Shown here: one piece after another, positions 45,405 to 63,792 of the stretch
Layout of the letters: the number at the start of each line of letters is the position of its first letter
Position numbering within the stretch: the stretch's first letter is position 1
From: Bradyrhizobium diazoefficiens
Lineage (GTDB): Bacteria; Pseudomonadota; Alphaproteobacteria; Rhizobiales; Xanthobacteraceae
DNA: 64,000 nucleotides
Direction of reading: 5' to 3'
Assembly: GCF_016616235.1 (NCBI RefSeq)
Contig: NZ_CP067100.1
Span: forward strand, 6,383,001-6,447,000
The notes under the pieces: model-generated
The model's input: the letters and a program-made list of their open reading frames with translations, nothing else
Databases searched by the model: none
What the model was told of the DNA's origin: nothing
Program-made: the position numbers and the translations under genes

Positions 45405-45479
45405 GGGCGCATAGCTCAGCGGGAGAGCGTTCCCTTCACACGGGAGAGGTCCAAGGTTCGATCCCTTGTGCGCCCACCA
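45405..45479 (+). tRNA. tRNA-Val (anticodon CAC)
   Basis: A full cloverleaf: acceptor GGGCGCA pairs with TGCGCCC, D-stem GCTC/GAGC, anticodon stem TTCCC/GGGAG around TTCACAC (anticodon CAC), T-arm CAAGG-TTCGATC-CCTTG, and an encoded CCA at the 3' end. The sequence downstream changes character, so it may be an integration site. Confidence 0.95.
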
Positions 45480-50707: not shown

Positions 50708-50792
50708 CGGCAATAAAAGCGGCAAATAAATCGGCACAAACTTTACATAACCATTGATATTGCTATATATTTAGCGGCAATGAAAGCGGCAA
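50708..50792 (+). repeat. CGGCAA repeats with 12-nt period across the fic start
   Basis: Three copies of CGGCA(A/C) lie at 50708, 50720 and 50732, and two more at 50775 and 50787, each spaced 12 nt start to start within a cluster. A-rich spacers (TAAAAG, ATAAAT, TGAAAG) separate them. The second cluster overlaps the proposed fic ATG at 50780. The intervening 37 nt are very AT-rich (TATTGCTATATATTTAG), as for a promoter. They resemble iteron-type binding sites. Confidence 0.55.
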
Positions 50793-51964
50793 AAATGGAT
50801 GTATCAGCAATGGAACCCCTCCTGCCCGAAGATCGGCAGGAACTCGAAGATCTGGGGACCGACCTGGTCGCTAAGGCCAACACACTGGCTGGCCGCCTCC
50901 ACCCGGTGATGCGGGCCTCGGTAGGCGACTTGGTGCGTTCGATGAACTGTTACTACTCCAACCTCATCGAAGGCCACAACACACTGCCCATCGACATTGA
51001 TCGAGCACTGAACAACGACCTGGCCAAGGAGCCCGAGCGCCGCAATCTGCAATTGGAGGCGCGTGCTCACATTGAAGTCCAGCGGATGATTGATCGCGGC
51101 GAAGCCCCCTCGCCCGCGCTGTTCGTCGATTTCATTATCTGGACGCACAAAAACTTCTGCGGGCGCCTGCCCGAAGAGTTGCTGGTCGTCGACCATCCCA
51201 CGACCAAAGAGAAGATCAAGATTGTCCCCGGCGAACTTCGTAAGGACCAAGTGAGAGTGGGACGTCACATCCCGCCCGATCCAGCCGATCTCCCCGCATT
51301 CCTGAAGCGTTTTGCCGAAGGATATTCGTCCCCTCACCTTTCGAAGCTGCGCAAGATTATCGGCGTTGCAGCATCACACCATCGCCTAGCTTGGATTCAC
51401 CCGTTTTTGGACGGCAATGGCCGCGTGACACGCCTGTTCTCGCACGCGCTCTTGCGAGAATTGGATGTCGGCTCCGAGCTTTGGGCCGTTTCGCGGGGAC
51501 TTGCGCGGCGGGTCGCCGATTACAAAGCAAATCTGCAGGCAGCGGACGAACCGCGGCGCGGCGACCTTGATGGCCGTGGTAATCTCACAATGTCGGGACT
51601 TGTCGGATTCTGTACGTTCTTCCTGACCACGTGCGTCGATCAAATCGACTTCATGGCCGGGCTCCTGGAGCCCGAAGAATTACTGAGGCGTATGGAAATC
51701 TGGACCGAAGAGGAAACGCGTGCAAAGCGGCTTCCAAAGGGCTCTTGGCCTTTGCTGCGCGAAGCGGTGATGGCCGGAGAGTACGCACGGGGTAAAGCGC
51801 CTGCTCTTACGGGCTACGAAGAACGCCAAGCGCGAACGGTCCTGAATGCCCTCATTGAGAAGGGCTACCTGGTTTCACCCACGACGCGCTCGCCGGTGAA
51901 GCTCGGATTCCCCACAGCCGTGGTCGATCGATGGTTTCCTAGACTGTACCAGCCGGTCGGGTGA
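50780..51964 (+). CDS. Fic-family protein (AMP transferase type)
   Basis: A 394-residue protein; ATG at 50780 or at 50795 (MDVSAMEPLLPEDRQELEDL) is the start, and the latter leaves the whole repeat array untranslated. The Fic motif HPFLDGNGR is at residues 207-215, with catalytic His207. The N-terminal part has SNLIEG at 60-65, matching the (S/T)xxxE(G/N) inhibitory helix of class II Fic proteins, so it is autoinhibited in cis. A C-terminal winged-helix-like region (YEERQARTVLNALIEKGYLV) follows. Such proteins transfer AMP to hydroxyl groups of target proteins. It is divergent from a frameshifted HTH gene. Confidence 0.9.
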   Translation: MKAAKMDVSAMEPLLPEDRQELEDLGTDLVAKANTLAGRLHPVMRASVGDLVRSMNCYYSNLIEGHNTLPIDIDRALNNDLAKEPERRNLQLEARAHIEVQRMIDRGEAPSPALFVDFIIWTHKNFCGRLPEELLVVDHPTTKEKIKIVPGELRKDQVRVGRHIPPDPADLPAFLKRFAEGYSSPHLSKLRKIIGVAASHHRLAWIHPFLDGNGRVTRLFSHALLRELDVGSELWAVSRGLARRVADYKANLQAADEPRRGDLDGRGNLTMSGLVGFCTFFLTTCVDQIDFMAGLLEPEELLRRMEIWTEEETRAKRLPKGSWPLLREAVMAGEYARGKAPALTGYEERQARTVLNALIEKGYLVSPTTRSPVKLGFPTAVVDRWFPRLYQPVG

Positions 51965-52401: not shown

Positions 52402-53073
52402 TCAGGCGAAGGTGCAGGCCTTGGACTCCAGCACCTTGCCTATGCCGGAGAGTTCGAGGATGTCACCGCCGGCCTTGAGTGCCTTCATGATGCCGGCCTC
52501 CTTCTCCTCGCGCGCAGCCGACTTGACGCAAACGTCGGCAATGTTCTCCTTGGGCACGATCACCACACCGTCGTCGTCGGCACTGACGATATCGCCGGGA
52601 CGAAGCGTAATCCCGCCGATGACGATTGGCTGATTGATGGTGCCAAGCGTCTCTTTAACAGTGCCCTTCATGCAGAGGCCGTAGGAGAAGACGTTGAAGC
52701 CGGTGCCGCGCACCGCGAGACCATCGCGAACGCCGGCATCAGTGACCAGCCCGACGATGCCCTTGGCGACGCAGGCCGTCGCCAGTACTTCGCCGAAGCC
52801 GCCCTGCTCGGGATGATCGCCCGCGCTCACCACGAGCACGTCGCCCGGCTTGGCCAGCGAAATCGCCGTGATCAGCATCATGTTGTCAGCTGGATGGCAG
52901 CTCACCGTCAGCGCCGGTCCGCAGGCGCGCATCCCGGAATAGATCGGCTTGATGCGGGAAGTCAGCGCGCCCAATCGCCCCTGCGCCTCGTGAAGGGTGG
53001 ACGGAGGAAACTTCTTGATGCGCTCGACAAGCTCGGCAGAGGGCCGATCGAATGTCCTGATCACGTGCACCAT
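52402..53073 (-). CDS. RraA-fold aldolase (4-carboxy-4-hydroxy-2-oxoadipate aldolase/oxaloacetate decarboxylase type)
   Basis: A 223-residue protein; ATG at 53073 has a perfect AAGGAGG 7 nt upstream, and the longer frame upstream is not coding-like. The conserved core is seen: STLHEAQGRLGALTSRIKPI, GPALTVSCHPADNMMLITAI, DVLVVSAGDHPEQGGFGEVL and GLVTDAGVRDG (the metal and oxo-acid site GxR/D). Members cleave CHA or HMG to pyruvate in aromatic catabolism, or decarboxylate oxaloacetate. It lies 96 nt downstream of a LysR gene and near a carboxylase operon; the acceptor here is unknown. Confidence 0.85.
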   Translation of the reverse strand: MVHVIRTFDRPSAELVERIKKFPPSTLHEAQGRLGALTSRIKPIYSGMRACGPALTVSCHPADNMMLITAISLAKPGDVLVVSAGDHPEQGGFGEVLATACVAKGIVGLVTDAGVRDGLAVRGTGFNVFSYGLCMKGTVKETLGTINQPIVIGGITLRPGDIVSADDDGVVIVPKENIADVCVKSAAREEKEAGIMKALKAGGDILELSGIGKVLESKACTFA

Positions 53074-53169
53074 GATAACCTCCTTGCAGCCGCGATTTCC
53101 GTTACACCTCCATAACCAACCGCCTTGGCGCGGCAAATTCAGATTTTGGGATTGCCGCATCGTGTTTCG

Positions 53170-54156
53170 TTATGGCTCGTCCTTCGGCGTGTCCACAGAC
53201 GACGTTGAGCCCCCCATCGCAATAGTCGCCGGGCCGAGATGGAGCTCGAGCGGCCCCCAGGTCTTGACGATGATCTCAAGCAATATTTTGTAGACGGCGA
53301 ACGCGGCATCGGACAACGCTGCGCTATCTGAAATGCACAGCGACATCTGTTGTGAGGCCGACGGCGCATTGATCCGCCGAATGCAGAGTTCGTCGACGTT
53401 CGGCAATTCCTTTGCGATCGACATGGGCAGCACTGCCGCCCCTACTCCGGCTGCAATCGCCGAAGATAGAGTCGATTGGGAATGGATCTCGGCAACGATG
53501 CGCGGGCGGAGTCCCACCTCGGCGCAGACGCGCTCGACCGTTTGTCGCAGGAAGGACTCCCGATATGGAAGAAGCAGGTCGAATTGCGCGACCTCCGTCG
53601 CCGATACTTCCTCTGCAGGCATCTGCTCCGGAGACATGCTGCGGGGCACGACAAGATAAAAGTACTCGCGCATCAGCGGCTTGTAGTCGAGACCGGTCAC
53701 CGGGCGTTCGCCGTAGAGGACAGCGATATCCATGCTCCCCTTCAGGATCATCTCGCTGAGCATGACCCCGGAGCTGTCGTAGATGTGCGGCACGATGCCG
53801 GGATAGCGTTCACGCACCTGCATCAGTAGCGGGGTCGCGAGCAACGCCGCCGAGCTGAGCGGGGCCAGACCGATCGTGACATTGCCGGTCAACTCCGGCT
53901 TGCTGTCCAGAATGGTGCGCCTGGCCTCCTCGATCTGCCGCTGGATCGACTTGGCATAGCGGTAGAGGATTCGTCCTGCTTCGGTGGGCTTGACCCCGCG
54001 GGCACTGCGATCGAGCAGCTTGCACTTGAAGTCCGCCTCCAGGCTCGCGATATGCTGACTCAGCGCCGGCTGCGCGACATTCAGCACCTTGGCCGCGCTC
54101 GTCATGCTGCCGAGATCCACGACCTTGATGAAGGCCTCCAAACGTTTCGTATCCAA
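53170..54156 (-). CDS. LysR-family transcriptional regulator (Nac/Cbl-like)
   Basis: About 328 residues. I prefer the TTG at 54156, which gives the usual LysR N-terminus (MDTKRLEAFIKVVDLGSMTS) with GGAG 9 nt upstream; another TTG at 54189 adds 11 residues. The HTH reads AAKVLNVAQPALSQHIASLE. The effector domain has NVTIGLAPLSSAALLATPLL and SAIAAGVGAAVLPMSIAKEL. It is divergent from the SDR-accBC-pxpBC operon and upstream of the aldolase gene, so it is the natural regulator of both. Confidence 0.88.
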   Translation of the reverse strand: MDTKRLEAFIKVVDLGSMTSAAKVLNVAQPALSQHIASLEADFKCKLLDRSARGVKPTEAGRILYRYAKSIQRQIEEARRTILDSKPELTGNVTIGLAPLSSAALLATPLLMQVRERYPGIVPHIYDSSGVMLSEMILKGSMDIAVLYGERPVTGLDYKPLMREYFYLVVPRSMSPEQMPAEEVSATEVAQFDLLLPYRESFLRQTVERVCAEVGLRPRIVAEIHSQSTLSSAIAAGVGAAVLPMSIAKELPNVDELCIRRINAPSASQQMSLCISDSAALSDAAFAVYKILLEIIVKTWGPLELHLGPATIAMGGSTSSVDTPKDEP

Positions 54157-54199
54157 TACGGCGTCTCCGGATATCCAGACGGGGAGCAATGCAGCAGCA

Positions 54200-54342: not shown

Positions 54343-55101
54343 ATGGGATTTTCGGATTATCGGACGGCCTTGGTGACGGGCGCGTCCTCTGGGATTGGGG
54401 CCGCGACGGTTCGGCGCCTGAGCGCGGAAGGGCTCCAGGTTCACGCCGTGGCACGCGACGCCGCTCGCTTGAGCGCCTTGGCCGCGGAGACCGGATGCCA
54501 GCCCTGCGCCGTCGACATCAGCGATCTCGACGCGCTTGCGGCACTGGCGAAGTCGGCCGAGTTCGATGTCCTCGTCAACAATGCCGGGCAGTCCCGGCGC
54601 GGCAACATCCTGGGTACCACGCCAGAGGATATCGACGCGCTCATCGACGTTAATCTGCGCGCGGTCCTGCACCTGACGCACCTCGTCGTGCCGGGCATGG
54701 CAAGTCGCGACCGCGGCCACGTCGTCAATATCTCCTCCATCGCTGGCCACTATGCATTCGCCGGCGGCAACACCGTGTATCACGCCACGAAAGCCGGCAT
54801 TCACTCCCTGTCGCAGCAATTGCGCGTCGATCTCTACGGAACCAGGGTTCGCGTCACCGAGATATCGCCGGCACGGGTCGAGACCGAAGTCTTCGGACGG
54901 CTGCTGGGCGATCTGGCTGAAGCCAAGCGCCGCTTCTTCGACGATTATGATGCTCTCCAGCCCGAAGACATTGCCAATTCGATCGCCTTTGCGATTGGAT
55001 CGCCGGCGCGCATGAACGTCGCCTTCATGGAGGTCCTGCCGACCCAGCAAGTCGTCGGCGGCCTCAATTTCGCGCAGAAGAGCAGGCCGCCGGCTGAGTA
55101 A
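54343..55101 (+). CDS. short-chain dehydrogenase/reductase
   Basis: A 252-residue classical SDR with ATG at 54343 after AGAGGAG. Cofactor motif TGASSGIGAATVRRL, structural NNAGQSRRGNIL, catalytic Ser in NISSIAGHYAFAG and YHATKAG. It resembles the YdfG/serine-3-dehydrogenase branch, which uses NADP on 3-hydroxy acids. It is first in the operon with accB, accC, pxpB and pxpC, 40 nt before accB. Its substrate is unknown. Confidence 0.88.
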   Translation: MGFSDYRTALVTGASSGIGAATVRRLSAEGLQVHAVARDAARLSALAAETGCQPCAVDISDLDALAALAKSAEFDVLVNNAGQSRRGNILGTTPEDIDALIDVNLRAVLHLTHLVVPGMASRDRGHVVNISSIAGHYAFAGGNTVYHATKAGIHSLSQQLRVDLYGTRVRVTEISPARVETEVFGRLLGDLAEAKRRFFDDYDALQPEDIANSIAFAIGSPARMNVAFMEVLPTQQVVGGLNFAQKSRPPAE

Positions 55102-55141
55102 TGCGTGAGGCCCCGAGCGCGATAGGCCGTCAACGCGGAGC

Positions 55142-55606
55142 GTGACCGTGGACTTCGCCAAGATCGAACAACTCGTGGATCTGGTTGCCCGCTCGTCGAT
55201 CGCGGAGCTGGATCTGACGCAAGACGGAACCCGCATCCGCATCCTCAAGCGCCCGTCTGCGGAAGCGCCGCCGGCCCCGGCTCGCCCTGCCGGCGGAAGC
55301 GATCCGCAAATTCCTTCCGCCAATCATAAGGACGGCCCAGCGCCCGGCGCCCCCGCCGATATCGTCGTCTCCGCGCCGATGCACGGCGTGTTCTACCGGT
55401 CTGCAGCGCCGGACGAGCCCCCGCTGGTCGAGGTCGGCGCGAGGGTCGAGGCCGGGCAAAAGATATGCACGATCGAAGCGATGAAGACCTTCATCGATAT
55501 CGCCGCCGAGACGTCCGGCGTCGTGCTTGCGGTCCTTGCCGAAAATGGTGACGAGATCGCAGCGGGGCAAGCGCTGTTCCGGATCGGTCCTGCGGGTTCA
55601 TCCTGA
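55142..55606 (+). CDS. biotin carboxyl carrier protein (AccB-like)
   Basis: A 154-residue protein with a GTG start. The N-terminal helices ([20 protein letters not shown]) and the (A/P)-rich linker are AccB-like. The biotinyl domain has [20 protein letters not shown] then [20 protein letters not shown], with biotin on Lys115 of the EAMK motif. It overlaps accC by one base. It supplies the swinging arm for the next enzyme. Confidence 0.9.
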
Positions 55607-56961
55607 TGTTCGACAAGGTCCTGATCGCCAACCGCGGTGAGATCGCGCTCCGTATCCAGCGCGCCTGTCGGACCATGGGTCTCAAGACGGTCGTCATTCA
55701 CTCGGAAGCAGACAGCGACGCGCGCTATGTCGCACTCGCCGATCAGGCACTCTGCATCGGACCTGCGCCGGCGAACAGCACCTATCTCAACGTGGCGGCG
55801 ATCCTGCTCGCGGCCGAAGTCAGCGGCGCCCAGGCGATCCACCCGGGATACGGGTTTCTCTCGGAAAGCGCGGAGTTCGCCGATCGGGTCGTGCGCGCCG
55901 GTCTCACCTTCATTGGCCCTCCCGCGGAGTGCATCCGGACCATGGGCGACAAGGTTGCCGCCAAGCGCGCGATGCGGCTGGCGGGTGTGCCTTGCGTACC
56001 CGGGCCGGACAGCGCGCTGCCGGATGATCCGGCGGAGGTGCGCGCGATCGCGCGGGACATCGGATATCCCGTCATCATCAAGGCCGCCGGCGGTGGCGGC
56101 GGCCGCGGCATGCGGATCGTGCGCAAGGAAGAGGCGCTGGACGAGGCGCTTGCGCTGACGCGCGCGGAAGCCGGCAAGGCCTTCGGAAACGCTGCGGTCT
56201 ATATCGAGAAATTCCTCGAGAAGCCGCGCCATATCGAGATTCAGGTGCTGTGCGATCAGCACGACAACCATCTCTGGCTCGGTGACCGCGACTGCTCGCT
56301 CCAGCGCAGGAACCAGAAGGTCGTCGAGGAAGCTCCCGCGCCGGGCATCGATCGCACGCTGATCGAGCAGGTCGGCGCGAGCTGCGTCGAAGCCTGCCGG
56401 CGGATCGGCTATCGCGGCGCCGGCACGTTCGAGTTCCTCTACGAGAACGGGCAGTTCTTCTTCATCGAGATGAACACGCGCGTCCAGGTGGAGCATCCCG
56501 TCACCGAGATGACGACGGGTATCGACATCGTCAAGGAACAGATTCGCATTGCGCGCGGCGAGCACCTCGGGATCGCGCAAGGCGACATCGCGCCTGCCGG
56601 CCATGCCGTCGAATTTCGCATCAATGCCGAAGATCCCGCCACCTTCACGCCGTCGCCCGGCACGGTGACGCGCTGGGACGTGCCCGGCGGCATCGGCATT
56701 CGCGTCGACTCCCATATCGCGGCGGGCGCCACGGTACCGCGTCACTATGACTCCCTGATCGGCAAGCTGATCGCCCACGGCAGCACTCGCGACGAGGCCC
56801 TGGCCCGCGCGCGCGTCGCCTTGTCCGAACTGCGCGCCGAAGGCATCCGGACCAACGTGCCCTTGCACCAGGCGATCCTTTCGGACCCGACATTCTGCCG
56901 TGGCGGCTTCGATATCCACCATCTCGAACACTGGATGAATGCGAAGATGGCCGCACAATGA
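55606..56961 (+). CDS. biotin carboxylase (AccC-like)
   Basis: A 451-residue ATP-grasp enzyme: [20 protein letters not shown] at the start, [20 protein letters not shown], the ATP-binding [20 protein letters not shown], then [20 protein letters not shown], and [20 protein letters not shown] (catalytic). It carboxylates biotin on the carrier with bicarbonate and ATP. Because the genome should have a separate housekeeping accC, this copy is probably dedicated to the pxpB/pxpC-type carboxyltransferase that follows with a 4-nt overlap. Confidence 0.92.
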
Positions 56962-57620
56962 CCGTGCCCGACCGGCCGCGGATCAGCCTGCTCGGTACAT
57001 CGGCTCTCCTGTTCGAGGCCCCCGGGGCGTTCGACCTGCCGCAGCAGCGACGCATCTGGGCACTGGCCGCCACGGCATCGAAATGGCCTGGCATTCGCGA
57101 AGCCGTTCCAGGCATCACCAACCTGATGCTGACCTTCGCAACGCCTCCTCGCCAACTCGACGCCCTGATCGCCGCTCTCAACGACGGCTGGGATAGGGCG
57201 GAAGGCCTCGTCATCGGCGGTCGCGAGATCAGGCTACCGGTCACCTATGGCGGCGAGATCGGATCGCAGCTCCGGTCCGTCGCCGATCATTGCAGCCTGT
57301 CCGTCGATGACGTCGTGGCGATCCATGCCGCGCCGCTCTACACGGTCTTCGCGCTGGGTAGCCATCCCGGCTATTGCTATCTTGGCGGCATGGACCCGCG
57401 CATCACCATGCCGCGACGACAGACACCGTTGCAACGCTCCGCCGGCGGCTCGGTATCGATCGGCGGGTTGCAGACCGGCGTCTCCGCCTCTCCCGGCCCC
57501 AGCGGCTGGCACGCTATCGGACACACGAGCTGGACTTTCTTCGACCCATCCTGGCCGACGCCAGCCGCGCTCGCACCGGGCGATACGATCCGTTTCGAGA
57601 TCGAACGGGTGATCCAGTGA
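56958..57620 (+). CDS. PxpB/KipI-type subunit, copy 1
   Basis: A 220-residue protein of the allophanate hydrolase subunit 1 (KipI) family; ATG overlaps accC as ATGA. The blocks [60 protein letters not shown], and [20 protein letters not shown] are typical. In 5-oxoprolinase it pairs with PxpC; in urea amidolyase the same domain is half of the carboxyltransferase. Here, beside accB and accC, the carboxyltransferase role is favoured. Confidence 0.85.
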
Positions 57621-58594
57621 TCGAGATCCTGTCAGTCACAGGCCCCGCCAGCATCCAGGATCTCGGGCGCTTCGACCAGTACCGCTTCGGGGTCGGCACC
57701 TCGGGTGCGATGGACGATGTCGCGCTGCGCGCCGGCAACATCATGCTCGGCAATGACGAGAATGCCGCCGCCGTCGAAATCCCGATGATGCCGTTCAGGC
57801 TCCGCTTCGATCGGAACATCGCTTTTGCGCTCACCGGCGCCGCCGTCGAGGCCGAGATCGCAGGACGCGCCATTCCGCCGTGGTGGCGCTCGTACGCGCG
57901 CGCCGGAGATATTCTGAACATCAAGGCGATGTCTCACGGCGCACGAAGCTATCTGGCCGTCAGCGGCGGCATCGACGTGCCGATGGTGATGGGCTCGCGC
58001 AGCACGCAGTTTCGCGGCGAGTTCGGCGGCTTGCACGGACGGCCGCTGCAGGCGGGCGACATCCTGCCCTGCGCTGCGTCGACCGCAGTCTTTGGCGAGC
58101 TCGGGATCGAGCCCGCCGGCATCACGCTGGCGCGAACGAACGATGCTGCGGACGAGACCATCGTCAGGGTCATCGTTGCCGGTGAGTATGAGGCGTTCGA
58201 CGCCACGGCGCAGGACTTGTTCTGGTCCAGCAGCTGGACGATCACGCCGCAAAGCAATCGCTATGGTTACCGCCTGCAAGGCCCCGCGGTGAAGCCGAAA
58301 GCGCCGGTCGAAAAGCGCTCGCACGGCATCGTTCCGGGTGTCATCCAGATTCCCCCCAACGGACAGCCCATCATCCAGATGAGAGATGCGCAGACATCCG
58401 GCGGCTATCCGAAGATCGCGACCGTGATCGGGGCCGACCTGTGGCGCGTCGGGCAGGCGCGGCTCGGCGGCAAGCTGCGGTTCGAGCAGAGCGCCTACAC
58501 TGATGCGCTTGCAGCCGAAGGCGAGATGTCGGCATATCTCGACCGGCTGCGGGCCAATATGCGTCTTGTCGAGGAGGCCCGAACATGCCGATAG
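57617..58594 (+). CDS. PxpC/KipA-type biotin-dependent carboxyltransferase subunit, copy 1
   Basis: A 325-residue protein; GTG at 57617 overlaps the previous stop as GTGA. Family blocks: VTGPASIQDLGRFDQYRFGV, GTSGAMDDVALRAGNIMLGN, GSRSTQFRGEFGGLHGRPLQ, and QIPPNGQPIIQMRDAQTSGG. It is the KipA/AHS2 half of the carboxyltransferase module. It overlaps the next gene by 10 nt. Confidence 0.87.
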   Translation: MIEILSVTGPASIQDLGRFDQYRFGVGTSGAMDDVALRAGNIMLGNDENAAAVEIPMMPFRLRFDRNIAFALTGAAVEAEIAGRAIPPWWRSYARAGDILNIKAMSHGARSYLAVSGGIDVPMVMGSRSTQFRGEFGGLHGRPLQAGDILPCAASTAVFGELGIEPAGITLARTNDAADETIVRVIVAGEYEAFDATAQDLFWSSSWTITPQSNRYGYRLQGPAVKPKAPVEKRSHGIVPGVIQIPPNGQPIIQMRDAQTSGGYPKIATVIGADLWRVGQARLGGKLRFEQSAYTDALAAEGEMSAYLDRLRANMRLVEEARTCR

Positions 58595-59019
58595 AGACAA
58601 CCGATATCGCGCGGCTGGCGCAGATCCTCGAAAACTCCGGCGTCGACACGATCGAGATCGAGGAGTCGGGACTGACCCTGAAGCTCGTTGTGGACACAAG
58701 GCTCCGCACGGCAGCGTCTGCATCGCGTGCCGCCGCAACCGCCCCTGCCGCCGATCATTTCGTCATGGCGAAAGCCGATGTCGCGGGACATTTCCGTGCG
58801 GCCCATCCCTGGCAGGACAAGCCGTTCGTCGCGCCCGGCCAGCGCATCGAGGCTGGCGCGACGCTCGGCCTGGTGAAGATCGGGCTATTGTATGCACCCG
58901 TCGTTGCGCCCACCGCGGGCGTCGTCGATGCCGTGATCGCGGAAACCGGCGCCATGGTCGGATACGGCACTCCGATCGTGCGCATCCTTCCGCTCGCGCC
59001 AGGCAACCCGCTCAATTGA
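58585..59019 (+). CDS. BCCP-like protein without the biotinyl lysine
   Basis: A 144-residue paralogue of the carrier at 55142. The two align without gaps over the C-terminal domain: GQRIEAGATLGLVKIGLLYA here against [20 protein letters not shown] there, then T(A/S)GVV in both. EAMK is replaced by KIGL, so Leu101 stands where biotin would be attached. The N-terminal helices (DIARLAQILENSGVDTIEIE) are also alike. It cannot be biotinylated at the normal site, so it may be structural, regulatory or carry something else. It overlaps pxpA by 8 nt, end to end. Confidence 0.8.
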   Translation: MPIETTDIARLAQILENSGVDTIEIEESGLTLKLVVDTRLRTAASASRAAATAPAADHFVMAKADVAGHFRAAHPWQDKPFVAPGQRIEAGATLGLVKIGLLYAPVVAPTAGVVDAVIAETGAMVGYGTPIVRILPLAPGNPLN

Positions 59020-59779
59020 GCAGTACAGTTGCAGGCGTGACTTCGCCGCCGCCCTGTTCGATCACGCGGCGAACCGTGCGGGCGAGATCGACCGATCCAG
59101 GCGTGTCGCTGTGGATCAGGATCGAGCGGGCCTCGATCTTGATCGACTTGCCCTCGATGGTCTTCACGGTTCCACTGTCCAGGAACTGCTTGACCCGTTC
59201 AGCTACCGCTTCCTGCGAGGTGATGACGGAATTGGGAAGCTTGCGGGAGACCAGATGGGCGTTCTCGTCATACGCCCGATCAGCCAGGAACAACGTCAAG
59301 ACGCGCAAGCCGACCCCGCGCGCGGCGCGCACGATCTCGGCGTCGGGCTGCGAGAACACGATGAAATCGCGGTTGATGGTCGCGATCGCGCGCGCGACGA
59401 CATCAGCCATGTCGGGGTCCGCGTTGACCATATTGCCCATCGCGGCGTGGAAGCTGACATGGGTCACGCGGTGGCCGGCATTGGCCGCGATCGCCTGCAA
59501 GGCGCCGATCTGATAGACCATATGCTTCTCGAGTTCGGCGGCATCCATCTGGATCACGCGGCGGCCAAACCCGAGCAGGTCGGGCAGGCCCGGATGGGCA
59601 CCGACCTCAACTCCCTTCTGCTTTGCCAAGCGGACCATGCGATCCATGGTCATGGGATCCCCGGCGTGGAAGCCGCACGCCACGTTGGCGGACGAGACGA
59701 TGCCCATCAGCGCCTCGTCATCGCAGATGCGATAATTGCCGAAGCCTTCGCCCATGTCCGAATTGATGCCGACTTTCAT
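59012..59779 (-). CDS. PxpA/LamB-YcsF family protein (5-oxoprolinase subunit A-like)
   Basis: A 255-residue protein; ATG at 59779 gives MKVGINSDMGEGFGNYRICD. The family pattern is present: ANVACGFHAGDPMTMDRMVR, VGAHPGLPDLLGFGRRV and ADRAY. However, the block I know as VKPHGALYN reads VSFHAAMGN (108-116), and CVHGDTPGA reads LIHSDTPGS. These lie at the active site of the fold, so a different substrate from 5-oxoproline is possible. It is last in the pxpB-pxpC-pxpA operon. Confidence 0.88.
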   Translation of the reverse strand: MKVGINSDMGEGFGNYRICDDEALMGIVSSANVACGFHAGDPMTMDRMVRLAKQKGVEVGAHPGLPDLLGFGRRVIQMDAAELEKHMVYQIGALQAIAANAGHRVTHVSFHAAMGNMVNADPDMADVVARAIATINRDFIVFSQPDAEIVRAARGVGLRVLTLFLADRAYDENAHLVSRKLPNSVITSQEAVAERVKQFLDSGTVKTIEGKSIKIEARSILIHSDTPGSVDLARTVRRVIEQGGGEVTPATVLLN

Positions 59780-59814
59780 GTTCGCACCCTGCTCTTGTTC
59801 TCGTTGACGTTCAC

Positions 59815-60792
59815 TCAAAGCTGTCGATAAAGATCCGCGGCAGCCCGCAAGCTGGCGAGATAGTCATTGACGGGGGCCATGGCCGCGACCGCGTCCTGGT
59901 AGCTCACATCCCTGAAGGTGATGAATGATCCTGGCGCCGCCTGGCCCAGGCGCCAGAGATCGGCCTGAATCACGGCCGCCATCTTGGGATAGCCGCCTGC
60001 CGTGTTGGCGTCGCTCATCTGGATGATCGGCTCGCCGGCCGGCGGCACCTGCACGACGCCGGCCACGACGCCATGCGAGCGCATCTCGATCGGCGCGTCC
60101 AATGTCAACTTGTCTCCGGTGAGACGGTATCCGCCGCGGTCGCTCCGGGCACTGGCCTTCCACGCAGTGGACCAGAACCTCGCCTGCATCGCCTCTGAAA
60201 ACAGATCATATTCACCGGCCCGCATGACACGTATCCGCAGCACGCCGTCATCTCGCGGGCCGGCGCCTGGGATCGCGACGTCCGGCGGCGCGGCGCCGAA
60301 GTCGAAACGGCGGGCAGCCTCTCGCGGTGGTTTGCCGACCGGAATGACGTCGCCCGTCTGCAAGCTTCGCCCCTCGAGCCCACCGAAGCCGGCGCGCAGA
60401 TGCGTGCTGCGCGAACCCAGCACCCGCGGAACGTCGAGGCCGCCGCCGAACGTCGCGTAGACGCGCGCACCGCGGCGCGGCGTTCCGATCGCGAGAATGT
60501 CGCCAGCCCTCGCCCGCTTGCACCACCACGGGCGCATGGATAATCCGGCCAGCGTCGAGACGTGATCGGCGCCCGTGAGCGCAAATGTCGTGTCCTCCTG
60601 GAAACGCAGGCGGAACGGAAATGTCTGGATCTCGATGCCGGCCGCATCGTCCTCATTGCCGAGCAGTGCATTTCCGGCCGCGAGCGCGACGGGATCCATG
60701 GCGCCGGACGTGCTCACACCGATGCCGCGCGCACCATGCCGGCCGAGATCCTGGATCGTATTGAAGGCGGGGCTGGCGAGGATCTCGATCAT
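59815..60792 (-). CDS. PxpC/KipA-type subunit, copy 2
   Basis: A 325-residue protein; ATG at 60792 overlaps the pxpB copy 2 stop as ATGA. Blocks: SPAFNTIQDLGRHGARGIGV, STSGAMDPVALAAGNALLGN, GSRSTHLRAGFGGLEGRSLQ and QVPPAGEPIIQMSDANTAGG. It is clearly related to the copy at 57617 but diverged. With PxpB copy 2 and PxpA it forms a 5-oxoprolinase-like complex. Confidence 0.87.
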   Translation of the reverse strand: MIEILASPAFNTIQDLGRHGARGIGVSTSGAMDPVALAAGNALLGNEDDAAGIEIQTFPFRLRFQEDTTFALTGADHVSTLAGLSMRPWWCKRARAGDILAIGTPRRGARVYATFGGGLDVPRVLGSRSTHLRAGFGGLEGRSLQTGDVIPVGKPPREAARRFDFGAAPPDVAIPGAGPRDDGVLRIRVMRAGEYDLFSEAMQARFWSTAWKASARSDRGGYRLTGDKLTLDAPIEMRSHGVVAGVVQVPPAGEPIIQMSDANTAGGYPKMAAVIQADLWRLGQAAPGSFITFRDVSYQDAVAAMAPVNDYLASLRAAADLYRQL

Positions 60793-61484
60793 AGCTCGAT
60801 CCGATCGATCCTGAATCTGACACGGTCCCCCGGCAGCATGAGAGACGGTTGCTCGCGCTGCGGATCGAACATGGCGACAGAGGCCCAGCCGATCGCGTTC
60901 CATCCATTGGGGCTCGACAGCGCCGCGACGCCGGTCTGCATCCCGCCGATGGTCACCGAACCCGCGCGCATGTTGAGCGAGGGCACTGATTTGCGCGGCA
61001 TGTGGATGCGCGGATCGAGACCATGGAGATAACCAAACCCCGGCGAGCTCGCGACGGCGCAGACCGTGTAATCGCCCTCGCTATGAATTCTGATGACCTC
61101 GCGCGCGGGCAGTCCGGTGTGCTTCGCGACCGCCGGCAAGTCGAAGCCGAGCTCGCCGCCATAGATCACAGGAATTTCGATGACCTTGCCGTCGGCCTTG
61201 CGGCCGGGCAAGCGATGCCACAGCTCGACGATCGAAGCGCCGAGCATGCCGATATCAGCAGGCGGCTGCTCGAATACCAGCATCACATTGGTGACGCCGA
61301 TGACGGCTTCCTGGACATTCGGCCACGACGACGCAGCATCCGCGAGCGCCCAGATGCGTCCCTGTTGAATCAGGTCAAACTCACCCGGTGCCTCGACCAG
61401 CATCGCGAGCGTGCCGATCAGGCTGATCTTCGGGCTTTTCTCGATCGCGCCGACAAGGGGAGCGCTGGGCTGATTAATCGACAA
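60789..61484 (-). CDS. PxpB/KipI-type subunit, copy 2
   Basis: A 231-residue protein with a TTG start at 61484 (GAGG 5 nt upstream; no better start in frame). Blocks: EAVIGVTNVMLVFEQPPADI, IPVIYGGELGFDLPAVAKHT, SSPGFGYLHGLDPRIHMPRK and SVTIGGMQTGVAALSSPNGW. First gene of the pxpB-pxpC-pxpA operon, 137 nt from the ABC-transporter ATPase gene upstream. Confidence 0.85.
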   Translation of the reverse strand: MSINQPSAPLVGAIEKSPKISLIGTLAMLVEAPGEFDLIQQGRIWALADAASSWPNVQEAVIGVTNVMLVFEQPPADIGMLGASIVELWHRLPGRKADGKVIEIPVIYGGELGFDLPAVAKHTGLPAREVIRIHSEGDYTVCAVASSPGFGYLHGLDPRIHMPRKSVPSLNMRAGSVTIGGMQTGVAALSSPNGWNAIGWASVAMFDPQREQPSLMLPGDRVRFRIDRIEL

Positions 61485-61621: not shown

Positions 61622-62716
61622 TCAGTGACGGGCAATGATATGATTGCTCGGCGACTCCCACCGCGCGACAACTTCCTCGCCCACAGCGTATCGAAGTCCC
61701 GCGTGTTGCGACTGATTCTGCTCGAACACGATGATCTGCCCGCCACTCGGCGTCCTGAGGTAATAGTGACTGACGAAACCGCGATAGATCGCCTGGTCGA
61801 CACGCGCCATCACGCTGTTCGCAGGTTGCGCCGCCGAGGCCTGACCAGCCCTCTCGACGATGATCGCCTCGGGCCTGATCGAGACCATCGCGTCGCTCGC
61901 CGATGCTGGAAGCTGCTCGACCTGAAGGCTCAATTCGGGCGACACGCGAATGACCGCTCCACTGCCATTGCGCTGCTCGACCGGACCTTCAAACAGGTTT
62001 GAGGCGCCGATGAACTGCGCGACGAATTTTGAAGCCGGACGCTGGTAAATTTCGGTGGCCGAGCCGACCTGCTCGAGCTTGCCATCGCGCATCACCACGA
62101 TCTTGTCAGCCATGGTCAGCGCTTCGTCCTGATCGTGGGTCACCATGATGGTGGTCAGGCCGAGCCTGCGCTGCAGGGCGCGCAGCTCGACCTGCATGCT
62201 CTCGCGAAGCCCCTTGTCGAGCGCCCCGAGCGGCTCGTCAAGCAGCAGCATTGCCGGCTCGATCACCAGGGCACGCCCCAGCGCGACGCGCTGTTGCTGA
62301 CCGCCGGAGAGCTGGGCCGGATAGCGCTTTCCGAAGTTCGACAGCTGGACGAGACTGAGAGCTTCGCTCACCTTCCTCGCAGCATCCGCCTTGGACATCC
62401 CGCGCATCTCCAGGCCGAATACGATGTTCTCCTCGACAGTCAGATGAGGGAACAAGGCATAGTTCTGGAACAGCATCCCGACGTTGCGGCGATGCACCGG
62501 CACGCCGGTCATCCTCTTGTCGTTGACGAAGACGTCGCCGGATGTCGGGCGGATCAGGCCCGCAATCATGCGGAGACAGGTCGTCTTGCCGCATCCGCTC
62601 GGACCGAGCAGAGCGACCATGTGCCCGGGCTCGATCGCGAGCGACACGTTGTCGACCGCGACCATGCGGCCGTATTCCTTGCCGAGGCGCTCAAGCCTGA
62701 CTTCAGAAGATTTCAT
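61622..62716 (-). CDS. polyamine-type ABC transporter ATP-binding protein (PotA-like)
   Basis: A 364-residue ATPase with a C-terminal TOBE regulatory domain. Walker A GPSGCGKTT, Q-loop MLFQNYALFPHLTVEENIVF, signature LSGGQQQRVALGRAL, Walker B MLLLDEPLGALDKGLRE, His switch in MVTHDQDEALTMADKI. The TOBE part has AIIVERAGQ and IYRGFVSHYYLRTPSGGQII. This is the spermidine/putrescine or Fe3+ importer class. It lies between the pxp operon and its own binding protein gene. Confidence 0.92.
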   Translation of the reverse strand: MKSSEVRLERLGKEYGRMVAVDNVSLAIEPGHMVALLGPSGCGKTTCLRMIAGLIRPTSGDVFVNDKRMTGVPVHRRNVGMLFQNYALFPHLTVEENIVFGLEMRGMSKADAARKVSEALSLVQLSNFGKRYPAQLSGGQQQRVALGRALVIEPAMLLLDEPLGALDKGLRESMQVELRALQRRLGLTTIMVTHDQDEALTMADKIVVMRDGKLEQVGSATEIYQRPASKFVAQFIGASNLFEGPVEQRNGSGAVIRVSPELSLQVEQLPASASDAMVSIRPEAIIVERAGQASAAQPANSVMARVDQAIYRGFVSHYYLRTPSGGQIIVFEQNQSQHAGLRYAVGEEVVARWESPSNHIIARH

Positions 62717-62727
62717 GACGACTCCAC

Positions 62728-63792
62728 TCAGCTCGTGAACACCTCGTTATATTTCTCCAGCCAGGGACCGCGGCGCGGGACGATGAAATTCCAGTCCGGC
62801 GTGAAGAGCCCGAGATCGGTTGCCTTCGTATCGGGATAAGCGAGGTATTTTGCCGTCTCAGGCTTGAAGTCGATGCCGCCGACCGAGGGCGCGCTCAGCG
62901 TCTGCTCCGATAGCATCTTGGCGACTGCCGGGTCTAGGATACGGTTGATGAAGGCAGCTCCGAGTTCCGGCTCCGGTGCATTCTTGACGATCGTCATGCT
63001 GTTGATGCCGGTAAACGCGCCTTCCTTCGGGAAGGTCATGTCGAGCGGCAGACCCTTCGCGGTGTGCGGATAGATCGCCTTGGAATATTCGATGCCGCCG
63101 ATCATCGCCTGCCCCTGCGCGACCTGGAGCACCTGCGCCTCGCTGTCGTAGATCGTCAGCACGTTCGGCTTGAGCGTCGCCAGCTTGTCCCAGCCCTGAT
63201 CGACCAAATATTGCGCCTCCTTGAACGGCTTGCCCGTGACGAGCGAGGCCGCAACGATGAGCATCAGCACGCTCTGGGTATTCTTCGGCGTGTTGAGGAG
63301 GATCTGCTTGCGATATTTGGCATCGAAGATCTCTTCATAGCTCTTGAGCGGCTTGGTCACCTGCGGATTGATGAACATCGCCGCGCTGGAGATCGAGAAT
63401 CCGACGCCGTATCCGTCCTCGAAAATATATCGCGGATAAACCTTCGCCAGATTGGGGATCTTGTCGGCGTCGAGCTTGCCGATCAGGCCCTCCTGCTTGG
63501 CCTGGGGGATGCCGACGTCATCCATCATCATGACGCTGAACCGCGGTGTATCGCGCGTTGCACGAAGCGCGGCGATGTTGGAGAGCGTCGCGCCTTCGAT
63601 CGTGAAGACCCGGCATTTGAACTCGGCTTCGAACTTGGGAATGACCTCCTTCTGGATCAGTTTACCCAGCGCGGAGTTGTAAACGCCAACATGCAGCTGC
63701 CTGGCGTCCTGCGACCAGGCCCGGCTGATGATGGTCGGGAAAGCGACCGCGGATGCACCGGCCTTGATGAGAGTCCTACGCGTCAGTCTCAT
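62728..63792 (-). CDS. ABC transporter substrate-binding protein (PotD/family 1-like)
   Basis: A 354-residue periplasmic protein; RRTLIKAGASAVAFPTIISR is a Tat-type signal. The mature part has LHVGVYNSALGKLIQKEVIP, GYGVGFSISSAAMFINPQVT, QGQAMIGGIEYSKAIY and FPKEGAFTGINSMTIVKNAP, the pattern of polyamine-type binding proteins. It gives specificity to the importer. The gene is 11 nt upstream of the ATPase gene. The ligand is unknown; the neighbourhood suggests an amide, lactam or amine. Confidence 0.88.
   Translation of the reverse strand: MRLTRRTLIKAGASAVAFPTIISRAWSQDARQLHVGVYNSALGKLIQKEVIPKFEAEFKCRVFTIEGATLSNIAALRATRDTPRFSVMMMDDVGIPQAKQEGLIGKLDADKIPNLAKVYPRYIFEDGYGVGFSISSAAMFINPQVTKPLKSYEEIFDAKYRKQILLNTPKNTQSVLMLIVAASLVTGKPFKEAQYLVDQGWDKLATLKPNVLTIYDSEAQVLQVAQGQAMIGGIEYSKAIYPHTAKGLPLDMTFPKEGAFTGINSMTIVKNAPEPELGAAFINRILDPAVAKMLSEQTLSAPSVGGIDFKPETAKYLAYPDTKATDLGLFTPDWNFIVPRRGPWLEKYNEVFTS

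Follow-up and report, generated by a model that had tools for sequence, protein, structure and literature searches.

The PxpABC 5-oxoprolinase, encoded by pxpBCA in E. coli and pxpTABC in C. glutamicum, and the urea carboxylase/amidolyase family are the described systems closest to the locus considered here. ATP-linked lactam opening is expected of PxpABC, and the assumption in print is that PxpBC phosphorylates and PxpA opens the ring (accessible portion of PMC13274462). The urea enzymes combine a biotin carboxylase (BC), a biotin carboxyl carrier protein (BCCP) and a carboxyltransferase (CT) of the same family as PxpBC. In the K. lactis enzyme the CT general base is given as K1605 (available part of PMC5770610), and two adjacent, unfused genes resembling the halves of this CT were noted in 2011 without functional data (PMC3199775, accessible text). 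We analyzed 64,000 nucleotides of Bradyrhizobium diazoefficiens (assembly GCF_016616235.1, contig NZ_CP067100.1, positions 6,383,001 to 6,447,000), referred to as a whole as the window. Two of its operons encode PxpA, two PxpB–PxpC pairs, the biotin carrier AccB, the biotin carboxylase AccC and an AccB paralogue, AccB2, that has lost the biotin lysine. Among the literature matches listed (titles and abstract openings, with most subscription papers outside the search), there was no description of an accBC-linked PxpBC or of a lysine-less carrier beside PxpABC; the accessible portions of PMC8453981 and PMC13390462 have no bearing on accBC linkage.

Our preferred reading, to which we give a probability of about 0.4, is that the cluster encodes one multi-subunit, biotin-linked enzyme of the PxpABC family, which would act on an imported amino-acid-like lactam or amide and open it, with AccB2 as a non-catalytic subunit. 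AccC would load CO2 onto the biotin of AccB, and PxpBC would transfer it to the amide nitrogen, which would weaken the amide bond. PxpA would then hydrolyze that bond and the resulting carbamate would lose its CO2, leaving an amino acid that the neighboring aminotransferase, oxidoreductase and RraA-type aldolase could degrade. AccB2 would act as a holder of PxpBC, PxpA and, where present, the biotin carrier, and the pair beside accBC (type I) and the pair beside pxpA (type II) would share the one local PxpA. From the match of PxpBC to the urea carboxylase CT domain and the intact AccC positions described below, we infer carboxylation of the amide nitrogen followed by hydrolysis by PxpA, the straightforward conclusion and a parallel to urea amidolyase. 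The novelty lies in a pseudo-carrier that is conserved and persists where biotin carboxylase is missing; the cluster that contains it suggests a possible way of breaking stable amide rings.

Gene content and family membership

The cluster comprises nine genes in the window:

54343..55101, plus strand, short-chain dehydrogenase/reductase (SDR) oxidoreductase (Pfam adh_short; best NCBIfam model the YdfG-type NF007829)
55142..55606, plus strand, accB, biotin carboxyl carrier with its lysine, EAMK motif intact (Pfam Biotin_lipoyl; alignment)
55606..56961, plus strand, accC, biotin carboxylase (NCBIfam accC, 660.5 bits, above the cut-off of 626.5)
56958..57620, plus strand, pxpB1 (CT_C_D), type I pair (Pfam PF02682, 205.5 bits; trees)
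57617..58594, plus strand, pxpC1 (CT_A_B), type I pair (Pfam PF02626, 304.5 bits; trees)
58585..59019, plus strand, accB2, pseudo-BCCP, AccB paralogue without the biotin lysine (hhalign; attachment column Leu)
59012..59779, minus strand, pxpA (LamB/YcsF), type II, the sole PxpA of the cluster (Pfam PF03746, 299.6 bits; tree)
59815..60792, minus strand, pxpC2 (CT_A_B), type II pair (Pfam PF02626, 287.3 bits; trees)
60789..61484, minus strand, pxpB2 (CT_C_D), type II pair, TTG start (NCBIfam TIGR00370; PF02682; trees)

Translation shows all nine open and in frame at the coordinates expected from an earlier, sequence-only reading, and the Pfam and NCBIfam names agree with the identities it had proposed. 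The overlaps of 1 to 10 nt that it reported from accB onward are also confirmed. On the plus strand, in the order SDR, accB, accC, pxpB1, pxpC1 and accB2, a 40-nt gap between SDR and accB is followed by overlaps of 1, 4, 4 and 10 nt. The minus-strand operon runs pxpB2, pxpC2, pxpA, and the two converge with an 8-nt tail-to-tail overlap, accB2 ending at 59019 and the pxpA frame at 59012. The most likely start of pxpC2 is the ATG at 60792; PxpB2 scores 183.1 bits with TIGR00370 (cut-off 145.55) and 213.9 bits with PF02682 in the genome search, and the SDR scores 154 bits with NF007829, far below its cut-off of 411. That reading lacked the lysine loss of AccB2, a third pxpBCA operon elsewhere in the genome, and the extension of the cluster past the window end, where two frames in the place of the relatives' permease genes are followed by an aminotransferase and a second SDR. 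A promoter scan returned 0 sites, and terminators are at chance level.

A scan of genome contigs gave 15 named Bradyrhizobium loci, all of which share this layout and hold both pairs. Compared with six relatives (five of these loci and one plasmid record), all 11 window genes examined are under purifying selection, with dN/dS of 0.04–0.41 overall and 0.04–0.07 for the SDR. The cluster is thus not a chance assembly. For the wider comparison 48 stretches were annotated, the window included. Their sources were a search of the genus, accB2-profile searches at order and phylum level, the scan of genome contigs, and plasmid records located via accB2, PxpC or AccC. Nine of the 15 named loci and one further locus, L147, were read and are in agreement but lie outside the 48. 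accC is present in 38 of the 48, which is not a natural frequency since the stretches were located through accB2, AccC or PxpC, and by alignment every one of the 38 has one lysine-bearing and one lysine-less carrier.

The genome, a single contig of 7.67 Mb, holds further copies of these modules. A second accB–accC pair, likely the housekeeping one, adjoins an aroQ-like frame at 4.377 Mb. Its AccC is 54% identical to that of the window, and the two are identical, and intact, at 11 checked positions (E. coli numbering). The possibility that the window accBC genes are the only, housekeeping copies, which the sequence-only reading had named as fatal to its own proposal, is therefore rejected. The genome search also found a pxpB-pxpC-pxpA operon at 4.108 Mb, bringing the totals to three PxpC, two PxpA and three PxpB. 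The window cluster is thus not the genome's only candidate 5-oxoprolinase, and with one of the two PxpA local, the two window pairs have a single PxpA between them unless the other is shared.

PxpA, PxpB and PxpC homologues are encoded together, as in PxpABC 5-oxoprolinases. Both PxpB proteins exceed the cut-off of TIGR00370, a model named PxpB, and PxpA likewise exceeds that of the subfamily model NF003814, while the PxpC_5OPro equivalog is not reached (305.5 and 275.8 bits against a cut-off of 500). Unlike the known 5-oxoprolinases, the cluster has additional accB and accC genes and a lysine-less AccB paralogue, its PxpBC form a separate clade, its neighbors include an aminotransferase, an SDR and an aldolase, and another pxpBCA lies in the same genome. 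The heteromeric acetyl-CoA carboxylase (AccBCDA) shares the AccB and AccC subunits, but accA and accD did not appear among the genes of the cluster and PxpBC occupy the carboxyltransferase position.

All modules of urea carboxylase (BC, BCCP and AHS-type CT) are present as separate proteins, and this common domain set is what favors a split urea or guanidine carboxylase. The NCBIfam model urea_carbox is not reached (best 475.2 bits, for AccC, against a cut-off of 1303.85); it was built for the fused protein, so that separate subunits could hardly reach it. The column of K1605 holds Arg in 43 of 43 PxpB sequences, E. coli included, with the reservation that a one-residue shift of the alignment would give Lys in pair 2 and Arg in pair 1. 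The lysine test for pair 1 as a urea carboxylase CT is therefore negative, and the description of the locus as urea-carboxylase-like loses its footing in this residue. Among 13 annotated stretches the name 'allophanate hydrolase' appears solely in L147, on the two genes at the PxpB and PxpC positions. In place of that hydrolase the cluster has PxpA, and it has the extra pseudo-carrier as well. We regard a urea or guanidine carboxylase as very improbable; what the cluster may share with the urea enzymes is the logic of carboxylation followed by hydrolysis.

Two types of PxpBC pair

Trees of PxpB and of PxpC were built separately with FastTree, and 46 concatenated PxpBC pairs were analyzed with IQ-TREE; the main split agrees among them. 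Both window pairs fall in one superclade of 38 rows (97/91 in IQ-TREE, with FastTree concurring). E. coli PxpBC and the genome's canonical pxpBCA fall outside it, on long branches whose placement is unsure. The type I clade (99/96, 18 rows) contains window pair 1 with sequences from other Bradyrhizobium, Microvirga, Variovorax, Burkholderia and Paracoccus, usually in the order accB-accC-pxpB-pxpC-accB2-pxpA. The type II clade (100/99, 19 rows) contains window pair 2 with Rhizobium, Sinorhizobium, Agrobacterium vitis, Terrarubrum and Rahnella, and its usual order is accB-accC-accB2-pxpB-pxpC-pxpA. The window thus has a pair of each type, and its one local PxpA is of type II; the two pairs have different origins. 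Neither groups with the characterized E. coli PxpBC, and the trees reject pair 2 as the ordinary 5-oxoprolinase; the operon at 4.108 Mb is the likelier candidate.

The sequence-only reading assigned one PxpBC copy to each activity. In such a division of labor carboxyl transfer would fall to pair 1 with AccBC and hydrolysis, as the next step, to pair 2 with PxpA. The arrangement fits, in that pair 1 lies beside accBC and accB2 and pair 2 beside the one local pxpA, and both pairs keep this layout in all 15 named relatives. However, the two pairs belong to a single superclade, and complete single-pair clusters (accB, accC, pxpB, pxpC, second carrier and pxpA) exist for type I and for type II. Terrarubrum has a type II pair, PxpA, accB, accC and accB2, yet no type I pair in its stretch. 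Residues conserved across the superclade are also kept: of 32 in PxpB and 57 in PxpC, pair 1 changes none and pair 2 changes two, both in PxpB, compared with 0–6 changes in other clades and 4 and 10 in E. coli. A division of labor is improbable on this evidence but, because pair 2 alone comes with a PxpA, could still have arisen once the pairs had been joined. The idea that one window pair is decaying is likewise unsupported, given purifying selection and the retained residues.

Alternatively, the cluster could be a merger of two systems whose pairs differ in substrate range or raise dosage while sharing AccBC, AccB2 and PxpA. Window pair 2 has its sister in the Terrarubrum single-pair system (99/98), and the PxpA of that system is sister to the PxpA of the window lineage (FastTree 0.93); pair 1 groups with type I systems, and the SDR is duplicated too. 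Such a merger would need the type I pair to use a type II PxpA, which is putative, and we consider it quite improbable. Terrarubrum AccC and AccB2 group among type I sequences, and modules have therefore been reshuffled between the types.

What is upheld of the sequence-only reading is an accBC-linked PxpBC system, separate from the genome's other accBC and from its canonical pxpBCA. Its assignment of one pair per activity is not supported, as does the likeness to urea carboxylase in the residue tested. A scheme of carboxylation plus hydrolysis remains the most economical reading.

Close accB2 matches (at least 219 bits) occur in 20 of 195 Bradyrhizobium genomes, two of them crossing a stop codon, and weaker ones (52–75 bits) in eight genomes, three among the 20. 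Six of the loci with weaker matches were read as single-pair type I clusters. A seventh, L040, on contig 2 of G061, has the divergent order accB-pxpB-pxpC-accB2-pxpA-accC and a long branch in the tree. A ninth genome in this score range, G004, has an accB–accC pair without pxp genes (L044). The accB2 profile tallies of 291/347 in the order search and 350/398 in the phylum search also take in ordinary AccB and do not measure how often the system occurs. Left out of the 48 are L044–L048, L119, L122 and L123: L044, L119 and L123 have a lysine-bearing carrier and no pxp genes, L045 has a fused urea carboxylase-like frame, L046 matched nothing, and L047 and L048 are other parts of the window's own genome. 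In L032 (Bradyrhizobium manausense) accC is split over two frames, by a sequencing error or a real break. L104, L105 and L130 show a third arrangement, in which accB-accC-accB2-pxpA stand together and pxpBC is either separate or not found in the stretch, the last locus being from Mesorhizobium and also carrying proline racemase-family, Ldh-family and FAD oxidoreductase genes. Viral contigs scanned for relatives of the cluster yielded none.

The pseudo-carrier and lineages without accC

AccB2 is homologous to AccB over its full length (hhalign probability 98.9, residues 1–139). It lacks the attachment lysine in its AMK context: EAMK is replaced by KIGL, with Leu in the attachment column, and no NCBIfam model scores above cut-off. 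The residue is not Lys in 119 of 120 close AccB2 homologues and Lys in 1 of 120, and alignment shows that it is again not Lys in the second carriers of divergent systems, Rahnella and Paracoccus included. In a carrier tree of 75 rows, built without the attachment columns, a single branch separates 40 lysine-less from 35 lysine-bearing carriers. Its SH-aLRT of 94 is below the program's star level, and a single origin of the lysine-less carriers is therefore compatible with the tree but not proven by it. The Lys label was set by the residue itself, and its agreement with gene position was verified from the row names. In terms of position, the 40 comprise second carriers and, in L118, L120, L121 and L127, the sole carrier seen, and the 35 comprise 30 first carriers and five references (the genome's other AccB, L044, L119, L122 and L123). 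H74 and P75 are each conserved in 37 of the 40 lysine-less carriers. Gene fusions gave no convincing clue to the partner of AccB2; long open frames across accB2 in some loci are apparently overlapping frames.

In plants, the BADC proteins are non-biotinylated BCCP relatives of the plastid acetyl-CoA carboxylase. They lack the biotinylation motif and are described as an assembly aid for BC–BCCP, with an inhibitor role also proposed (PMC11926652, in the part available). The likeness of AccB2 to BADC lies in the loss of the motif from a BCCP relative and is drawn from their published description. AccB2 differs in being bacterial, in being encoded with PxpABC, and in being retained in some clusters without accB and accC. 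It is tied to PxpABC more closely than to biotin carboxylase, and in this it differs from a BADC-like assembly aid for BC/BCCP alone. If our reading of it is correct, a bacterial lysine-less BCCP serving as an operon-encoded subunit would parallel BADC.

Ten of the 48 stretches have no accC: five have both carriers, four have the lysine-less carrier only, and Bosea has neither. One of the four, L120, stops soon after pxpC at a contig end. A lysine-less carrier was found in 15 of 16 plasmid loci from PxpC or AccC match lists, which were chosen for genus spread and not at random, some of the records also being among the accB2 matches. The exception is again Bosea, where a frame annotated as hypothetical (L140, 7924–8364) lies between pxpA and pxpB. 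Its N-terminus matches AccB and its C-terminus AccC; it is a remnant of accB–accC fused by internal deletion.

Such lineages, together with the arginine at K1605, are what weighs against our preferred reading. Rahnella (L127), L118 and L121 have pxpB, pxpC, pxpA, accB2, SDR, aminotransferase and transporter genes, with no accC and no lysine-bearing carrier within the stretch. L118 and L121 belong to one family and group with Rahnella at 100/100, and a whole-genome search of these two found AccC matches only away from the cluster. Five loci from one family of the window's order, one of them on a 5.6-kb contig, have pxpA, a lysine-bearing carrier, accB2 and pxpBC, and accC is again missing from the stretch. 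In six genomes from this family, including four that contribute to the five loci, there are two AccC matches each, both elsewhere, one 54% identical and the other in a frame of 1,158–1,193 codons. Carboxylation is therefore either not obligatory or served by another AccC. In L122, where the pxpB-pxpC-pxpA genes lie outside the superclade, the neighboring carrier has its lysine and the stretch reaches the contig end without a second carrier.

The same observations favor a PxpABC-type lactamase that opens the ring by ATP-dependent phosphorylation with no biotin chemistry, AccBC and AccB2 being regulatory or serving another carboxylation. Relatives without accC retain the rest of the cluster, Bosea has a decayed accB–accC, both window PxpB carry the PxpB-type 'PR[RK]' site, and phosphorylation is the model in print for PxpABC (PMC13274462, accessible portion). 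On the other hand, the window and several relatives have accB and accC within the operon, in overlapping frames; both genes are under purifying selection in the window, and accC recurs in most of the stretches. We judge phosphorylation alone to be somewhat unlikely. A more specific form of the biotin-linked reading is also doubtful: a bicarbonate- and biotin-dependent lactamase in which the lysine-less BCCP would be an essential sixth subunit in alpha-, beta- and gammaproteobacteria, some lineages having dropped the biotin half. PxpBC tied to biotin carboxylase in many lineages and free of it in others constitutes a natural experiment on the ATP use of PxpBC and its kinship with CT.

Neighboring genes and the candidate substrate

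Four further genes of the window flank the cluster:

52402..53160, likely start 53073, minus strand, RraA-type aldolase, 4-carboxy-4-hydroxy-2-oxoadipate aldolase-like (NCBIfam NF006731)
53170..54189, minus strand, LysR-type regulator (Pfam HTH_1, LysR_substrate)
61622..62716, minus strand, ABC transporter ATPase (Pfam ABC_tran, TOBE_2)
62728..63792, minus strand, ABC transporter solute-binding protein (Pfam SBP_bac_8)

The aldolase is above the cut-off of one 4-carboxy-4-hydroxy-2-oxoadipate aldolase/oxaloacetate decarboxylase model (NF006731, 213.7 bits against 179) and below that of another (TIGR02798, 191.9 bits against 304.5). The regulator is labeled nac in the annotations of several relatives. 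Recurrent neighbors among the 48 stretches, counted with thresholds that we set ourselves, are an aminotransferase (37; the window's own lies just outside it), SDR (36), RraA-like protein (32) and amino-acid-type ABC ATPase (22). A similar ABC ATPase adjoins the single-pair systems of Terrarubrum and of Neorhizobium NCHU2750, with a spermidine/putrescine-type annotation in the latter.

Because of the aminotransferase, SDR and RraA-type aldolase, these neighborhoods suggest catabolism of an amino-acid-like lactam or amide. One consistent route would begin with a 4-hydroxyglutamate-like lactam, whose ring opening and transamination would be followed by an aldol cleavage that yields pyruvate and another 2-oxo acid. 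The D-glycerate or 2-hydroxyacid dehydrogenases that adjoin the Burkholderia, Microvirga and Paracoccus clusters would fit that route. Many of the fetched plasmid records come from root nodules, grapevine or soil, and the substrate may therefore be a plant compound. A 4-methyleneglutamate-type substrate, considered because of peanut hosts and the aldolase, found no support among the papers listed in a literature search and has no place in the model.

Type I clusters repeatedly have L-idonate 5-dehydrogenase-like genes next to them (L109–L112, L131, L135 and L139), and a 2-hydroxyacid dehydrogenase is found in L131, L135 and L139, which may point to some connection with sugar-acid catabolism. 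Directly left of the cluster, a tRNA-Val gene at 45405–45479 is followed by a low-GC stretch to 52000 (0.55–0.57 against about 0.65), which may be a small island and which includes a gene for a Fic/DOC protein at 50780–51964.

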